From assembly GCA_938045955.1 (NCBI GenBank), contig CALIBK010000096.1, positions 1-58,110 on the forward strand: a DNA stretch of 58,110 bases, in the 5' to 3' direction. Source of the stretch: an uncultured bacterium (GTDB lineage Bacteria > Desulfobacterota > BSN033 > UBA1163). The notes under the pieces were generated by a model. It was not told the origin of the DNA. It searched no databases and saw only the letters and a program-made list of their open reading frames with translations. Below are positions 1 to 26,470 of the stretch, piece by piece (position 1 is the first letter of the stretch; the number at the start of each line of letters is the position of its first letter). The position numbers were made by a program, and so were the translations under genes.

Positions 1-2066
1 TTTAACTTGTCAGCATCGTGCTTTGATTTTTCCAACTCTTCTGTAACCAATTGGGCGAACCTATGGATTGGAAATTGCGGTTTAACTAAAAGAATTCCAC
101 CCGATAATGTAATATTAGGATTTTGACAGGTATACTCTCTAAAGTCTTTATAAATTTCCAATGACAGCTCAATAATTTTATCCCAGGGGCCAATGATAAA
201 AAGATCATCTCCCCCAGAATAAACGATATAAAAAACACTACCTAAGTTTTCACAAATTTGATTTAACCATGCACCAAAAAAAATTTCTAAGTTACTACTT
301 AACGTTGCAATTCTTGATATAGAGGGATTATTAATCCCTAATGAAAATAATAGACCAAGATAATCTATATCCATTTTTAAAATGCCAAGGTATTTTGCAC
401 CTGTACTTCGATTGGCTATTCCTTCAAATTCAAGCACCTCCCCATCAATTCCTATGGGTACAGAATTTCCTAAAAATTTAAACCCAAATGACACTGGCTT
501 TTCATTTATATTTTCCTTTAAGAATTCAAGACCAAGATCTTGGCTAAATTTTGGATTAATTGAAAAAATACAAGAATTCAATTTCAATTTACCATTTAGA
601 ATTTTTTCCATTTCTTCTTCGTTTTGCAATAAAACTGTAACTCCAAAATCTTCAAAAGGTATTTCAGTTCCATGAAATTCTTCACATTTCCCATAAACGA
701 AAGAAATAAATTCCTTTTTTGGAAGATCGGAGCCAATTTTAAAATGAGTTTCGCAATGCTGGCATATTTGACCTTTAGATACTGGAACAATCAAACAAAC
801 ATTACATAGGTCGCTAACCTGTTCAGTTGAATGAAAGAAATCACCTTTTGTAATCATTTCGTTAAATTTTTTCATTTTAGATTCAGATAATTTATCTTCA
901 GCTTTTTTATAAATTTGATTAAACTCAAAGAAATCTTTGGGGGCTACTTCAACTACAACTAACTGGATACTAAGTTCCCCGTAAAATTCTTCTAATAGCC
1001 ATTCATCAAGAAATTGTTGAAGATTCTTCAATTTCTTTTTTGTAAAATCTGAATTTGGTATTAAAATATCGAATCTACCTCCACCACAAAAAAGTAAATT
1101 TGGTATAGGCAATTGCATCTCCCTTATAATCCAATCAGAAATCACATCTGTAAGAAGTGAGATGTAAAAAGATCTCCCCCTCAGTCTTTTTGAAGTCCCT
1201 TTTGTTTCGGCTTTTGGCTTAGTAATACTGTAAATAAATTTCTGAATGCCAGCTATGTCACCCCTTAAAAGTATGAATAAAGGTTTTTGAGCTGTCTGTG
1301 AAGATTCGAGAATAGACCTCCTTTTTTCTATATCCATTTCTTTATGGTGTTGCTTTAATGTTTCAATTAGATTAAGCATTTCGGTATTTGAAAAGTCATC
1401 TTCGCTTAATTTTTTTAGGCAAGCTGCTATAGCACAAGTTACTTTAGAATGGTCAAATAATGATATGTCTGGAATCGTCCTATTATATTGGTCTTCTTCC
1501 CAAGGGGTTGCTGAAGGTACAAAGGTGCCGAATTCCTTGAGTATGAAAAATAATGTCGTAAAATCATAAGGTTGATATTTTTTTAATAATCCAATCTTTT
1601 TGATAAATCCATTCCAAACTCTTTCATATCCTCTCTCTTCAACAAATGGTCTGTCTTTTGGAAATAAGACCTCTTTACTAATTTTTAAAGAGTCCAATCT
1701 ATAGAATTTTTCCTTCCCACAATCCTTCCTGAAATTTATTCTCGAAGTCACCGCTAAAAGAGCTGCTTCGTTTGATTTAAACTGCCCTCTTTCCTCTTTA
1801 ACTCTTTCCCCAGCCGCAAGTTTATCCGCTATGTGAATGATATATTCATTTCGAGTAGAAGGAATTTCATGATGTTTCTCTATAAGATTTGCAATATCTT
1901 TTGTTAAATCATCACCAAAATAATTTCTTAATGAGCTTATAAAATTTCCGGAGAAATCCGAGTGCTTAGTGTAATATTCCCCACCTTCTCTCTGTGAAAT
2001 CTTCCCAATATCATGAAGCAGTGCGGCTAAAATTACGGTTTGGAACTCTTTATCATCAAATCCCAT
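1..2066 (-). CDS. cas10: Cas10 (Csm1-like), type III CRISPR effector large subunit, cut by left edge
   Basis: About 688 codons are open from ATG at 2066 to the window edge with no stop, so the C-terminus lies outside. An HD-nuclease motif HDIGK begins at residue 18. Two CxxC pairs (C421/C424 and C435/C438) form the zinc-ribbon-like part. The palm cyclase motif is Y-S-G-G-D-D with GGDD at 618-621. All these motifs were checked to be in one frame, so the gene looks intact. In this family the HD domain cuts ssDNA and the GGDD palm makes cyclic oligoadenylates (cOA) on target RNA binding. The start has GGAGG upstream (ggaggggtaaaaATG). It is the last gene seen of the cas run; csm/cmr backbone subunits would be expected beyond the left edge, so subtype III-A versus III-D cannot be fixed from here. 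Confidence 0.93.
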   Translation of the reverse strand, partial: MGFDDKEFQTVILAALLHDIGKISQREGGEYYTKHSDFSGNFISSLRNYFGDDLTKDIANLIEKHHEIPSTRNEYIIHIADKLAAGERVKEERGQFKSNEAALLAVTSRINFRKDCGKEKFYRLDSLKISKEVLFPKDRPFVEERGYERVWNGFIKKIGLLKKYQPYDFTTLFFILKEFGTFVPSATPWEEDQYNRTIPDISLFDHSKVTCAIAACLKKLSEDDFSNTEMLNLIETLKQHHKEMDIEKRRSILESSQTAQKPLFILLRGDIAGIQKFIYSITKPKAETKGTSKRLRGRSFYISLLTDVISDWIIREMQLPIPNLLFCGGGRFDILIPNSDFTKKKLKNLQQFLDEWLLEEFYGELSIQLVVVEVAPKDFFEFNQIYKKAEDKLSESKMKKFNEMITKGDFFHSTEQVSDLCNVCLIVPVSKGQICQHCETHFKIGSDLPKKEFISFVYGKCEEFHGTEIPFEDFGVTVLLQNEEEMEKILNGKLKLNSCIFSINPKFSQDLGLEFLKENINEKPVSFGFKFLGNSVPIGIDGEVLEFEGIANRSTGAKYLGILKMDIDYLGLLFSLGINNPSISRIATLSSNLEIFFGAWLNQICENLGSVFYIVYSGGDDLFIIGPWDKIIELSLEIYKDFREYTCQNPNITLSGGILLVKPQFPIHRFAQLVTEELEKSKHDADKL

Positions 2067-6424: not shown

Positions 6425-6586
6425 CCTAAATTGAGCGATTTTTCGTCATTCATTGAATCAAATATACTGGATTCCTGCTTCCGCAGGAATGACAACTACC
6501 ACTCAATAAATGAAAACGTCATTCCCGTGAAAACGGGAATCCAGAAGGGTTATCTTTAAATAATACTAAGAATCGCTCAATTTAGG
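6425..6586. mobile_element. MITE-like palindromic element, copy 1 (162 bp)
   Basis: The ends are perfect 14-bp inverted repeats, CCTAAATTGAGCGA at 6425-6438 and its complement at 6573-6586. CAAAA lies on both sides (6420-6424 and 6587-6591), consistent with a 5-bp target-site duplication. Inside are two 8-bp-stem hairpins, ATTCCTGC-ttcc-GCAGGAAT and ATTCCCGT-gaaa-ACGGGAAT, that are also complementary to each other. It contains no ORF. A near-identical copy is at 26310-26470. It separates the cas region from the rest of the window. Confidence 0.85.
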
Positions 6587-17701: not shown

Positions 17702-18859
17702 TTATCGGAGCATTCCCATAAATATTCCGGCGACCAAAGAGGTTCCAATGGCACCTGCCATGTTAGGTCCTAAGGCGTGCATGAGAAGATAATTTTTAGG
17801 GTTGGCTTTCTGTCCTTCTATTTGGGCGACTCGTGCGGCCATTGGTATCGCTGAAACTCCTGCGGCCCCAATAATCGGATTAATCTTCTCTTTTAGAAAG
17901 AGATTGACAAATTTTGCTCCTAACAAACCCCCTACAGTTGAAAAGACAAAAGCGAGAATAGCCAAACCAAAGATCAATAAGGTTCGTGGATTAAAAAATA
18001 CCTGGGCAGGCATAAGAGATCCAACGGATATTCCAAGTAGAAGAATAAGGATATCATTTAATATTCCTCCGGCACGAGCAAGCCGCTCTGTAACCCCACT
18101 CACTCTTAATAGATTCCCAAACATCAGCATTCCAACCAGAGGAGCACTTTTAGGAACAAAGAGGGAGGCGACAATGAAAACGATGATTGGAAAGAGGATC
18201 AATTCTAATTTTGAAACTTTTCGTATTTGAGGTTTCATCATAATCGTTCTTTCCTTTTTTGTTGTAAGTAAACGAATCACAGGAGGTTGGAGGATAGGAA
18301 CCAAGGCCATGTATGAATAAGCAACCATTGTAATGGGACCCAATAATACGGGAGCTAATGCCACTGTAAGATAAACCGTAGGAGGACCATCTGAGCCGCC
18401 AATGATACCAATACAGGCGGATTCATTAATGCTAAACATTCCACTCAAATGAGCAATCAAAAAAACGATAAAGACTCCTAATTGGGCAGTTGCTCCGAAC
18501 ACAAGGGAAATGGGACGGGCAATCGTGGGGCTAAAATCCATGAGTGTCCCCACGCCTAAAAAGATCAGTAAAGGAATAATTTCTGTTTCCAGTCCATAAT
18601 AATAAAGGAGATTAAGAATACCGATTTTTCCTTCTGCAATCTCTTTTACTCCTCCAATCGCTGGTAGTCCCTCAGGAGTATAGGTCATAATCCCTGCAAT
18701 CGGTAAATTGACCATGAATATCCCAAACCCAATTGGCACCAAAAGTATGGGTTCCATCTTTTTAACAATCCCTAAATAGATCAACACTCCACCAATTAGA
18801 AGCATAGCAAGGTGGCCCAGAGTCATCTGCCCTAATGCGCTCTCATATAACCCAAACAT
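17702..18859 (-). CDS. Na+-translocating decarboxylase beta subunit (OadB/GcdB), copy 2
   Basis: 385 aa with about nine to eleven hydrophobic segments. The functional loop G-G-S-D-G-P-P-T-V-Y matches region IIIa, whose aspartate is needed for Na+ transport in OadB, and the C-terminal M-H-A-L-G-P-N-M-A-G-A-I-G-T is also typical. In complete pumps this subunit couples decarboxylation of biotin-bound CO2 to Na+ export. No carboxyltransferase (alpha) or biotin carrier gene is in the window. It is preceded by its own small gamma-like gene and is clearly diverged from the neighbouring beta copy. Confidence 0.92.
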   Translation of the reverse strand: MFGLYESALGQMTLGHLAMLLIGGVLIYLGIVKKMEPILLVPIGFGIFMVNLPIAGIMTYTPEGLPAIGGVKEIAEGKIGILNLLYYYGLETEIIPLLIFLGVGTLMDFSPTIARPISLVFGATAQLGVFIVFLIAHLSGMFSINESACIGIIGGSDGPPTVYLTVALAPVLLGPITMVAYSYMALVPILQPPVIRLLTTKKERTIMMKPQIRKVSKLELILFPIIVFIVASLFVPKSAPLVGMLMFGNLLRVSGVTERLARAGGILNDILILLLGISVGSLMPAQVFFNPRTLLIFGLAILAFVFSTVGGLLGAKFVNLFLKEKINPIIGAAGVSAIPMAARVAQIEGQKANPKNYLLMHALGPNMAGAIGTSLVAGIFMGMLR

Positions 18860-18875
18860 CTCTTCCTCCTTTAAT

Positions 18876-19007
18876 CTATTTGGCTTTTTCTTTCTTCTGG
18901 ATCATTAAACTGGCAATCCAGATGATCACGGAAATGATGACTAAAACTAAAATATTAATTCCATATCCAGCCCCAGAAATTAAAAAAGCCAACTTCCAAT
19001 TAACCAT
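18876..19007 (-). CDS. Small OadG-like (gamma) subunit, copy 2, 43 aa
   Basis: The peptide starts at ATG 19007 with AAAGGAG 8 nt upstream. It has one hydrophobic helix (about residues 6-36: L-A-F-L-I-S-G-A-G-Y-G, then I-N-I-L-V-L) and a short charged tail Q-K-K-E-K-A-K. This is the layout of gamma subunits of Na+-pumping decarboxylases, minus the histidine-rich tail. It lies between the two beta genes, 16 bp before copy 2. A longer open frame extends upstream into copy 1 but that part is not family-like. Confidence 0.75.
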   Translation of the reverse strand: MVNWKLAFLISGAGYGINILVLVIISVIIWIASLMIQKKEKAK

Positions 19008-19053
19008 TTTTTCGCTCCTTTCATCAGATATTTGAGAATATCTTTTTAGGAAA

Positions 19054-20193
19054 TTAGATGACTCCCATCCCTTTGAGGACAGAGAGCATGACGGCGGCAG
19101 CCATGACCGAACCCACCTGTCCACCCGTATTGGCTCCCATGGCATGCATGAGAAGGTAGTTCTTTGGGTTGTATTTCTGACCCTCTCTCTGAACCACCCT
19201 GGCTGACATTGGATAAGCGGAGATTCCGGCAGCACCAATGAGAGGGTTAACTTTCCCACCGGTTAATACCTTCATGACTTTTCCAAAGAGAACTCCACAG
19301 GCCGTATCCAAACAGATCGCTAAAAAGCCAAGTCCTAAAACGACCAAAGTCTGGGGTTTAAGGAAGATTCTTCCATCCATGGTAGCTCCTATAGAAATCC
19401 CCAAAAGGAGCGTGACAATGTTTGGAATCTCATTTTCAGCTGCTTTTGTGAGACGCCCGACGACCCCACACTCTTTCATAAAATTCCCGAGCATGATCGT
19501 TCCTAATAAAGGCAGGCCTCTCGGGGCAATCAAACCACCGATTACTGTGACGATCAATGGAAAAAGGAGTTTGGTGGTTTTTGAAACCGATTTCTTCACC
19601 ACTCCCATATTGATTTTTCTTTCCTCCTCCCCGGTGAGAAATCTCATAATGGGGGGTTGAATCACCGGGACCAGTGACATATAGGAGTATGCGGCGACCG
19701 ATACCGCACCCAGCAAATGTGGAGCATATTTGGAGGTGACATAAATGGCAGTTGGTCCATCACAGGCGCCTATAATCCCGATGGCCACTGCATCCTTTTG
19801 AGGAAATCCTAAGGCGAGGGCCAACGCTAATGTTAAGAAGATTCCAAACTGCCCTGCTGCACCTAAGAGGAAAATCTTAGGATTCTCAAGCAAGGGTCCA
19901 AAGTCGGTCATGGCCCCAATCCCCACAAAGATAAGGAGTGGAAACAGCTCTGTCATAATTCCCGCGTCATAAATAATCCTTAAGAAACCTTCTTCTTCCA
20001 TTAATCCTGCTAAGGGGATATTGACCAGGATTGCTCCAAATCCAATGGGAACCAGAAGCAACGGTTCGAAATCTTTTTTAATTCCGAGGTAGAGCAAAAG
20101 ACACCCAACTCCGATCATGATGGGATTGGACCAGTGAAGGTTAACAAATCCCGAAATGAGCCCCTGAATTCCACCCCAAATGGCCTCTGACAT
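19054..20193 (-). CDS. Na+-translocating decarboxylase beta subunit (OadB/GcdB), copy 1
   Basis: 379 aa, polytopic. The Na+-coupling loop is G-A-C-D-G-P-T-A-I-Y, and the C-terminal M-H-A-M-G-A-N-T-G-G-Q-V-G-S segment is conserved with copy 2. G-I-S-A-Y-P-M-S-A-R-V-V is another family stretch. It is 21 bp after the first gamma-like gene. Presence of two beta copies in one operon without alpha or biotin carrier suggests that cytoplasmic subunits are encoded elsewhere and that two pumps, or a hetero-complex, exist. Confidence 0.92.
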   Translation of the reverse strand: MSEAIWGGIQGLISGFVNLHWSNPIMIGVGCLLLYLGIKKDFEPLLLVPIGFGAILVNIPLAGLMEEEGFLRIIYDAGIMTELFPLLIFVGIGAMTDFGPLLENPKIFLLGAAGQFGIFLTLALALALGFPQKDAVAIGIIGACDGPTAIYVTSKYAPHLLGAVSVAAYSYMSLVPVIQPPIMRFLTGEEERKINMGVVKKSVSKTTKLLFPLIVTVIGGLIAPRGLPLLGTIMLGNFMKECGVVGRLTKAAENEIPNIVTLLLGISIGATMDGRIFLKPQTLVVLGLGFLAICLDTACGVLFGKVMKVLTGGKVNPLIGAAGISAYPMSARVVQREGQKYNPKNYLLMHAMGANTGGQVGSVMAAAVMLSVLKGMGVI

Positions 20194-24838: not shown

Positions 24839-25132
24839 ATGTATCAAATCGTTATGGAAAAGGTAAGGGCGAGGGTGATCATTGAAGGAAGGGTCCAGGG
24901 AGTCTTCTTTCGCTATCATACACAGGAGATGGCCTACCGATTAGGGATTAAAGGATGGGTTAAAAATCGAAGGGATGGTCGTGTGGAAGCAGTATTTGAA
25001 GGGGAAAGGAATCGCGTCAATCAAATGATTGAATGGTGTCATCACGGGCCTCCGGAGGCAAGGGTCACGGGAGTTCGAGTGACCTGGGAAGAGCATACCG
25101 GGGAGTTTCAGGATTTCTCAATCACCTATTGA
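24839..25132 (+). CDS. acyP: Acylphosphatase
   Basis: 97 aa, with a possible later start at ATG 24854. The active-site loop [10 protein letters not shown] (phosphate-binding loop plus catalytic Arg) and the [12 protein letters not shown] segment with the catalytic Asn are complete, as is the [10 protein letters not shown] end. It hydrolyses acyl phosphates such as acetyl or carbamoyl phosphate. It is the only plus-strand gene before radC; its last 7 bp overlap the tail of the converging small membrane-protein gene. Confidence 0.93.
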
Positions 25133-25353
25133 CCCTTCTTGGGAGCCTCTTTTTCCTCTTTCAGAATCTTCTTTTGAATCTCCTTTCCTATCTCTCCCTT
25201 CTCTTTTCTCACCAGTTCCTCGATGACCTCCATTCGCTTCCCTGTTTCCGTCAATCCCTCTCCCATCTTCTTTACGGTCTTTCCTCCTCCAAAATAGATG
25301 AAGAAAAAGAAGATGAGAATTCCAATAATCACTCCAAACAAGAATCGTATCAT
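25126..25353 (-). CDS. Small single-helix membrane protein of unknown function
   Basis: 75 aa. The first 22 residues ([12 protein letters not shown], then F-F-F-F-I-Y-F) form one transmembrane helix. The rest is a charged, probably helical region rich in K and E ending [17 protein letters not shown] precedes the ATG. It begins 12 bp after the selenoprotein gene stop, so it is likely co-transcribed with it. I do not recognise a family. It could anchor or regulate a partner at the membrane, but nothing in the sequence shows this. Confidence 0.65.
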
Positions 25354-25365
25354 TCTTCATCCCCT

Positions 25366-26268
25366 TTAGCTTTTAGATGGAGCTTCGGAGGCTTGCTGTC
25401 TGGCCTTTTTAATATCCTCCAGATAATACCTGATCAGAGGAGACATCTCCGGCGGTTGCCAGTCCGTTTTTTTGGGATCCTCTGGCCATTGAAAGGGAAG
25501 ATGCCATACCTCTCCTGGATTTTTGGCCTTTTCGAAAACCTCAAGGGTTTTAAGAAGAACCTTTCTCTGTCCCTCGCGGTCTCCTGCCTGTCCTACGGGT
25601 CTACCGTAAGGGTATTCTATCGCTGCTGTTCGAGGGATTCCGACAGCCCGATGAAATTCCCAGGTAGTACTTAAAACAATCGTTGAAAATCCCCTCTCTT
25701 CAAGGAATCGAGCAGCCAGCCCCACGGACTGGTTACAGAAAGGTCAAGCAGGCGTTAGAAGAACGGCTTCCACTCCTTCTTCTTTCATTGACTGGGAAAT
25801 AGGTTCGATCGCCTCTTTTAAAAATTCAGTATTTTGCCACTGAAATCCATAAAAGGAGTAAGCGGTTGGGGCAAGCCTGCCAATTATTCCCTCTCGTTCA
25901 AATTCCTCCATTCTCTGAAGAGGAAGCATGACGTTGATATCCTGTTTAATCCAGTTTGTGTTGATATGAAGGTGGTTGACATCGATATCCTTTTCGGTTG
26001 TCCCTCTGGGGATCCTCCGGAAAGACCGATCTCCCCAGAGAGGCTCCCTTTTTTCTCTCTCCATATCAAAAGGAGGATCTGTTTTTAGACTTATCCCAGC
26101 ACTGGTGATCAGGCCTAAAATAATTTGATTTAAAGGTTTTGAGAGAGGTGTCCAGGGAATAGGACCATTAAACTCATGATCCGGAATAAAGGTCTTGATC
26201 CAGGCTTTAAGTCCTGGCGGAAGAAATTTAAAACCATCCACAATCTTTTTCCCCTCCTCCAACATCAT
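25366..26268 (-). CDS. Selenoprotein: GrdB-like glycine/sarcosine/betaine reductase B family, Sec at residue 175
   Basis: One 300-residue frame is interrupted only by an in-frame TGA at 25744-25746, read here as selenocysteine (residue 175). The context is L-L-T-P-A-U-P-F-C-N-Q-S-V-G-L, a U-x-x-C redox motif at the place where related family members have Cys or Sec. Sequence similarity continues across the TGA, and a SECIS-like hairpin follows. An N-terminal H-L-H-I-N-T segment is family-like. The start has AGGAGG 4 nt before ATG 26268 (or 7 nt before ATG 26265). Short GrdB-like proteins of this kind lack an assigned substrate. sel genes are not in the window. A MITE copy lies just upstream. 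Confidence 0.82.
25716..25732 (-). promoter_or_regulatory. Candidate bacterial SECIS hairpin
   Basis: Minus-strand CCAGTCCGTGGGGCTGG starts 12 nt after the TGA. CCAG pairs with CTGG, a single T is bulged, CC pairs with GG, and the loop is GUGG, putting G-U at nt 19-20 after the UGA. A bulged U and apical GU are features of SelB-recognised bacterial SECIS elements. Confidence 0.6.
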
Positions 26269-26309
26269 TGCACCTCCTGAGATGAAAAAAAACTTACCGA
26301 TTATATATA

Positions 26310-26470
26310 CCTAAATTGAGCGATTTTTCACCATTAATTGAATCAAATATACTGGATTCCTGCTTCCGCAGGAATGACGACTGCCACCCGATGAATGAAA
26401 ACGTCATTCCCGTGAAAACGGGAATCCAGAGTGGTTATCTTTAATATTACCAAGAATCGCTCAATTTAGG
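26310..26470. mobile_element. MITE-like palindromic element, copy 2 (161 bp)
   Basis: It has the same 14-bp perfect terminal inverted repeats as copy 1 and the same two internal hairpins, with scattered substitutions in the less structured parts. ATATA flanks both sides (26305-26309 and 26471-26475), a 5-bp duplication different from that of copy 1, which supports independent transposition. Confidence 0.87.

Follow-up and report, generated by a model that had tools for sequence, protein, structure and literature searches.

Two questions are raised by a gene of GrdB-like appearance in the genome of an uncultured bacterium of the Desulfobacterota (lineage BSN033; UBA1163), namely whether the UGA that interrupts its reading frame is decoded as selenocysteine (Sec, U), and what role a selenolate of the GrdB type would have in a protein that appears to lack a pyruvoyl-bearing partner. 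In glycine and proline reductases, the amine binds to a carbonyl (pyruvoyl) group on a partner subunit, and the selenolate of GrdB or PrdB attacks the substrate carbon, so that a partnerless architecture leaves the function of the selenolate to be explained. We address both questions using the window, by which we mean the whole 58,110-nucleotide stretch analysed (contig CALIBK010000096.1 of assembly GCA_938045955.1), the genome to which it belongs (a 2.69 Mb draft in 177 contigs, 91.65% complete), and 395 genomes of the phylum, which were searched for homologues with the protein.

A reading frame continued through UGA

The gene and its associated elements lie on the minus strand (Table 1). Its frame is interrupted solely by one TGA and, when this triplet is translated as U, yields a 300-aa product with the Sec residue in the context VLLTPA-U-PFCNQSVG. 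Continuity of the frame across the TGA and a U-x-x-C motif (here TPA-U-PFC) had both been described in a first-pass annotation of this DNA, which named no strand, and both were borne out. Under the standard code, an ORF finder splits the gene into ORFs of 174 and 119 aa, and part of the selenoprotein family may, for this reason, stand in records as two truncated ORFs.

Table 1. Features of the selenoprotein locus, in window coordinates.
Feature	Position	Strand	Remarks
Stand-alone PrdB/GrdB-like selenoprotein gene (predicted)	25366..26268	minus	ATG at 26268, stop TAA at 25366-25368 following 300 codons; residue 175 is Sec
In-frame UGA for selenocysteine U175	25744..25746	minus	Same lone in-frame TGA in nearly all homologues
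Bacterial SECIS hairpin	25715..25733	minus	Stem UGA+11..29; covariation and synonymous-codon tests
Shine-Dalgarno-like sequence AGGAGGTGCA	26269..26278	minus	Directly upstream of the start ATG; read from the sequence

Homologues were found in 98 of the 395 genomes, nearly all of them with exactly one in-frame TGA. Among 92 aligned homologues, the residue at the Sec site (residue 175, where the first-pass annotation had proposed to look for U or Cys) is U in 87 and Cys in three, the latter being the PrdB of Enterococcus gilvus and two proteins from aerobic alphaproteobacteria (Roseomonas and Haematobacter); it is Gly in one and missing from another, a fragment. Such exchange of Cys and Sec is the expected pattern of a selenoprotein family. 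One locus (L044, genome G359) has GGA (Gly) at the site where its relatives have TGA, together with an intact SECIS hairpin (-17 kcal/mol) and SelB, and reflects either a sequencing error or a change that happened very recently. Purifying selection acts on the coding sequence before and after the UGA (pN 0.11-0.28 versus pS 0.69-0.94).

The genes for Sec synthesis and insertion, whose presence had been proposed as a further check, are all in the genome: SelA (539 bits), SelB (376 bits), tRNA-Sec (78.4 bits, cut-off 47) and SelD, whose gene also has an in-frame TGA. Co-occurrence with SelB across the phylum carries no information, since the SelB cut-off is passed by 353 of the 395 genomes, whether or not they have the gene studied here. 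SelD is probably a selenoprotein itself, because a single TGA interrupts its gene (locus L018, G000:C139:3756-4682).

Two ways of reading the UGA other than as Sec were weighed against these data. If it were a real stop, arising from a nonsense mutation, a sequencing error or the juxtaposition of two genes, the two ORFs returned by a standard ORF finder and the draft state of the genome, in 177 contigs, would be easily understood, but the recurrence of TGA in this alignment column among homologues of many families, strong purifying selection 3' of the UGA and the covariation of the SECIS described below all speak against it; conservation has already refuted a real stop, to which we give hardly any probability. 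Genome-wide reassignment of UGA to another amino acid, for which the analysis found no support, has a practically negligible probability: the adjacent acylphosphatase gene (24839-25132) has TGA as its stop codon, and tRNA-Sec, SelA, SelB and SelD are present.

A conserved SECIS hairpin

The hairpin that follows the UGA has an apical loop GUG at 25723-25725 (UGA+19 to +21), closed by a 7-bp stem, and the loop consensus in relatives is GUN at +19 to +21. An apical GU at nucleotides 19-20, as claimed in the first-pass annotation, is therefore where it was said to be, but the bulged U also claimed there has no place in the conserved helix; the window has instead an A.C mismatch at the base, in the outermost pair (25733/25715). 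Across 25 relatives, 97.5% of the cells of the helix are paired, three pairs show two-sided changes (GC/AU, CG/UA and UA/AU), and in a slid control, with the partner moved by 1-3 nt, pairing falls to 7-46.5%.

Tests of synonymous recoding and synonymous conservation were added because shuffles among sequences ignore relatedness. Compared with synonymous recodings of each sequence, the SECIS is far more stable, with a mean z of -2.8 and p<=0.05 in 20 of 25. Codons 180-184, which span the SECIS loop and stem, form the most synonymously conserved five-codon window of the gene in 37 orthologues (0.81, versus a gene mean of 0.42); Ser181 is encoded by TCC in every one of them. The free loop position is the third base of Val182, a codon that varies at the normal rate of the gene. 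The fold energy of the window's hairpin taken by itself was modest (z -1.1 and -1.3) and, being non-significant against shuffles, was left out of the evidence. A search of the window against Rfam at curated cut-offs gave no match.

With U or Cys at the site, a covarying SECIS, the Sec machinery and purifying selection on both halves, the interrupted gene is, as judged by comparative sequence evidence, a genuine selenoprotein encoded by a single gene, as the first-pass annotation had supposed. The SECIS just after the UGA (25746-25744) would recruit SelB and Sec-tRNA-Sec, so placing selenocysteine at residue 175 of the 300-aa protein. Very probably, then, this is a translated stand-alone selenoprotein of the PrdB/GrdB superfamily.

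Placement within the GrdB/PrdB superfamily

The Pfam GRDB profile (PF07355) matches the protein with 41.4 bits (gathering cut-off 22, E 1.4e-10) over profile positions 214-345 of 347. Its best NCBIfam match is PrdB (TIGR04483), at 142.6 bits over residues 38-261 versus an equivalog cut-off of 300; true PrdBs score 408-425 bits on the same profile. The GrdB-type NCBIfam profiles reach 39-50 bits versus cut-offs of 65-800 and are matched only in their C-terminal half (the GrdB/GrdF/GrdH profiles compared being PF07355, TIGR01917, TIGR01918, NF040794 and NF040795). Since these scores fall under the equivalog cut-offs, the protein is, by profile assignment, a member of the GrdB/PrdB superfamily but an equivalog of neither PrdB nor GrdB. 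The earlier term GrdB-like accordingly holds at the superfamily level, through Pfam GRDB, but PrdB is the nearer relative by TIGR04483, and the protein cannot be counted as GrdB or PrdB in the strict sense.

In a quick tree, 37 sequences including the protein form a clade (SH-aLRT 99) that is separate from biochemical PrdB and has a Chloroflexi sequence as sister. The named members are metagenome-assembled genomes labelled Syntrophaceae, Desulfomonile, Desulfobacterales, Desulfosarcina, Desulfatitalea and Desulfarculaceae, and the gene is, judging from this tree, part of a stand-alone Desulfobacterota clade. An N-terminal VDGFRFLPP...AW and a C-terminal extension (WPEDPKKTDWQPPEMSP) are found clade-wide, and the close clade keeps UPxCC, with N179 in our protein where other members have Cys. 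Elsewhere in the superfamily, four loci (L041, L045, L046 and L049) form a starred clade of their own with the motif A-U-P-L-D-H-Q-S-V-G, in which Sec is kept and the resolving Cys is replaced by Asp. Another starred clade (L116, L117, L118, L119 and L128) consists of Sec proteins of about 366-413 aa, mostly with VPVUPxCTRAVG and a long extra part.

Absence of recognised partner subunits

Neither PF09338 (GrdE/PrdA-type) nor GrdA was found in the genome, which is 91.65% complete, and the same holds for 12 of the 13 genomes of the close clade that were searched; both searches found positive controls from the same phylum, and the PF09338 model recognises a true PrdA. The exception, genome G237, has its GrdB, GrdE and GrdA on one contig, 139 (C139), and the clade gene on another, 81 (C81). 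A scan of neighbours at this locus and at other clade loci found no prd or grd operon partner. In the window the neighbours are acylphosphatase, RadC, thymidylate kinase, PSP1 and other housekeeping genes, in a synteny kept only within the family and replaced by different genes at other loci. A partner subunit too divergent for PF09338 could nevertheless lie elsewhere in the genome.

These results bear on whether the protein is simply the PrdB of a D-proline reductase, or the GrdB of a glycine, betaine or sarcosine reductase, working with a pyruvoyl-bearing partner. TIGR04483 as the best NCBIfam match, a UxxC position common to PrdB and GrdB, and a PrdB-like length would suit such a subunit, but the match lies well below the equivalog cut-off, the clade is separate from PrdB, prd and grd neighbours are lacking, as are, in all but one of the genomes searched, GrdA and PF09338 partners, and in G237, the only clade genome where the Grd set is complete, the clade gene and that set are on different contigs. 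We consider membership of either complex quite improbable.

Some other features of the surroundings were recorded. A 75-aa membrane-like ORF with a hydrophobic N-terminus (25126-25353, minus strand) begins 12 nt past the selenoprotein stop; its homologues adjoin acylphosphatase in related genomes and, in some relatives, lie apart from the selenoprotein gene. Upstream of the selenoprotein gene is a MITE-like element of 161 bp (26310-26470, and also at 6425-6586), with inverted repeats of 19 bp at its ends (CCTAAATTGAGCGATTTTT) and one of 28 nt inside; its terminal motif has 101 copies per strand in the genome versus 1-2 for a reversed control and is often at contig ends. Farther away, at 17702-20193 on the minus strand, two tandem OAD_beta genes (Na+-transporting decarboxylase beta subunit) adjoin a gene for a 1410-aa BcrAD/BadFG-type CoA dehydratase activator.

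Predicted structure and proposed mechanism

An AlphaFold2 model built with 33 orthologues is confident (pLDDT 93.4, pTM 0.92) and has an alpha/beta fold, with U175 in a loop between a strand (168-172) and a helix (178-191). Foldseek gave no match in the PDB at E<=0.001 (best E 0.011, TM 0.31), and a PDB sequence search found no believable relative; a confident model without a PDB counterpart makes the protein a useful structural target.

The protein has the catalytic C-terminal domain, without the N-terminal GrdB domain and without a recognised pyruvoyl subunit (GrdE/PrdA). Most likely, its selenolate would attack a small substrate at an activated carbon or heteroatom; the Se-adduct or selenenyl-sulfide so formed might then be resolved by Cys178 (joined by Cys179 in orthologues), and the final reduction could come from thioredoxin or a similar thiol donor. 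With thiols regenerating the selenolate and no pyruvoyl subunit taking part, the protein would be a Sec-dependent reductase made by one gene and not a component of a Stickland complex; the most likely reading is a Sec reductase that acts alone and depends on thiols, and the step of net reduction, taken by itself, seems to us rather probable. Cys178 may not serve as resolving residue throughout the superfamily, since the UxxD subfamily (UPLDH, in L041, L045, L046 and L049) keeps U without a resolving Cys.

That same subfamily, as a case of Sec without CxxC-type chemistry, would fit a Sec-dependent nucleophilic enzyme that carries out no net reduction, acting for example in cleavage of C-halogen, C-S or onium bonds or in a transferase-like manner, with thiols serving only to regenerate the selenolate; in addition, a GrdB-like selenoprotein has been implicated in fluoroacetate defluorination (PMC10838667, where GrdB/PrdB-type selenolate chemistry is also discussed). 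Set against this are the conservation of UPxCC in the close clade and the lack of substrate evidence of any kind, and we regard such an enzyme as unlikely, though deserving some weight. Returning to the stand-alone reductase, we see about an even chance that the clade of about 300 aa with UPFCC represents a Sec-dependent reductase, made from one gene by anaerobic Desulfobacterota and not set apart before, whose substrate and mode of substrate activation would both be new, which would work without a pyruvoyl partner of the sort that accompanies characterised PrdB and GrdB, and whose fold has no solved counterpart.

Comparison with known systems

Selenoproteins of this general kind are already known. 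A 2006 catalogue lists PrdB-like UxxC selenoproteins in the non-Stickland bacteria Anaeromyxobacter and Geobacter uraniireducens (PMC1794560), and a 2008 survey of the GOS metagenome gives 235 Sec and 110 Cys PrdB-like forms (PMC2398784). Current tables list such proteins as D-proline reductase (PMC9312934, PMC13188914), and the roles of GrdB and GrdA have been reviewed (PMC13188914). Nothing specific to a partnerless PrdB branch was found in the open-access literature. The first-pass description of a little-studied branch is thus fair, though the kind had been catalogued, as is its statement that the substrate is unknown; what is new is the delimitation of a clade that has neither partner nor operon.

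With PrdB (TIGR04483) the protein shares homology over residues 38-261, the same U-x-x-C site and a similar size, and PrdB has a Cys version in Enterococcus; it differs in scoring a third of a true PrdB, in having neither a PrdA partner nor a prd operon, and in additions, conserved across its own clade, of about 35 residues at the N-terminus and 40 at the C-terminus (WPEDPKKTDWQPPEMSP). GrdB, GrdF and GrdH have the same U site, with Sec directly after the matched PF07355 positions 214-345, but are full-length proteins of about 430 aa, whose N-terminal part of about 210 residues is absent here; moreover, the protein falls under all their curated NCBIfam cut-offs, and its genome is without GrdE or GrdA. 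The stand-alone "Glycine/sarcosine/betaine reductase selenoprotein B family protein" of Roseomonas and Haematobacter (WP_207415257.1 and WP_035710215.1, 302-308 aa) is homologous around the site, but has Cys there (NCPVCHQT and NCPICHQT), is only 26-27% identical and comes from alphaproteobacteria. Of the same broad kind are the survey selenoproteins termed "Proline reductase PrdB (pfam07355, UxxC)", which are likewise PrdB-like UxxC proteins occurring outside Stickland clostridia in Sec and Cys forms, but among which, in the portions of those surveys consulted, the UPFCC clade of about 300 aa is not set apart, nor the missing partner discussed (PMC2398784, PMC1794560). Such surveys count PrdB-like selenoproteins as "proline reductase", whereas the branch described here, having no recognised partner, probably does something else.
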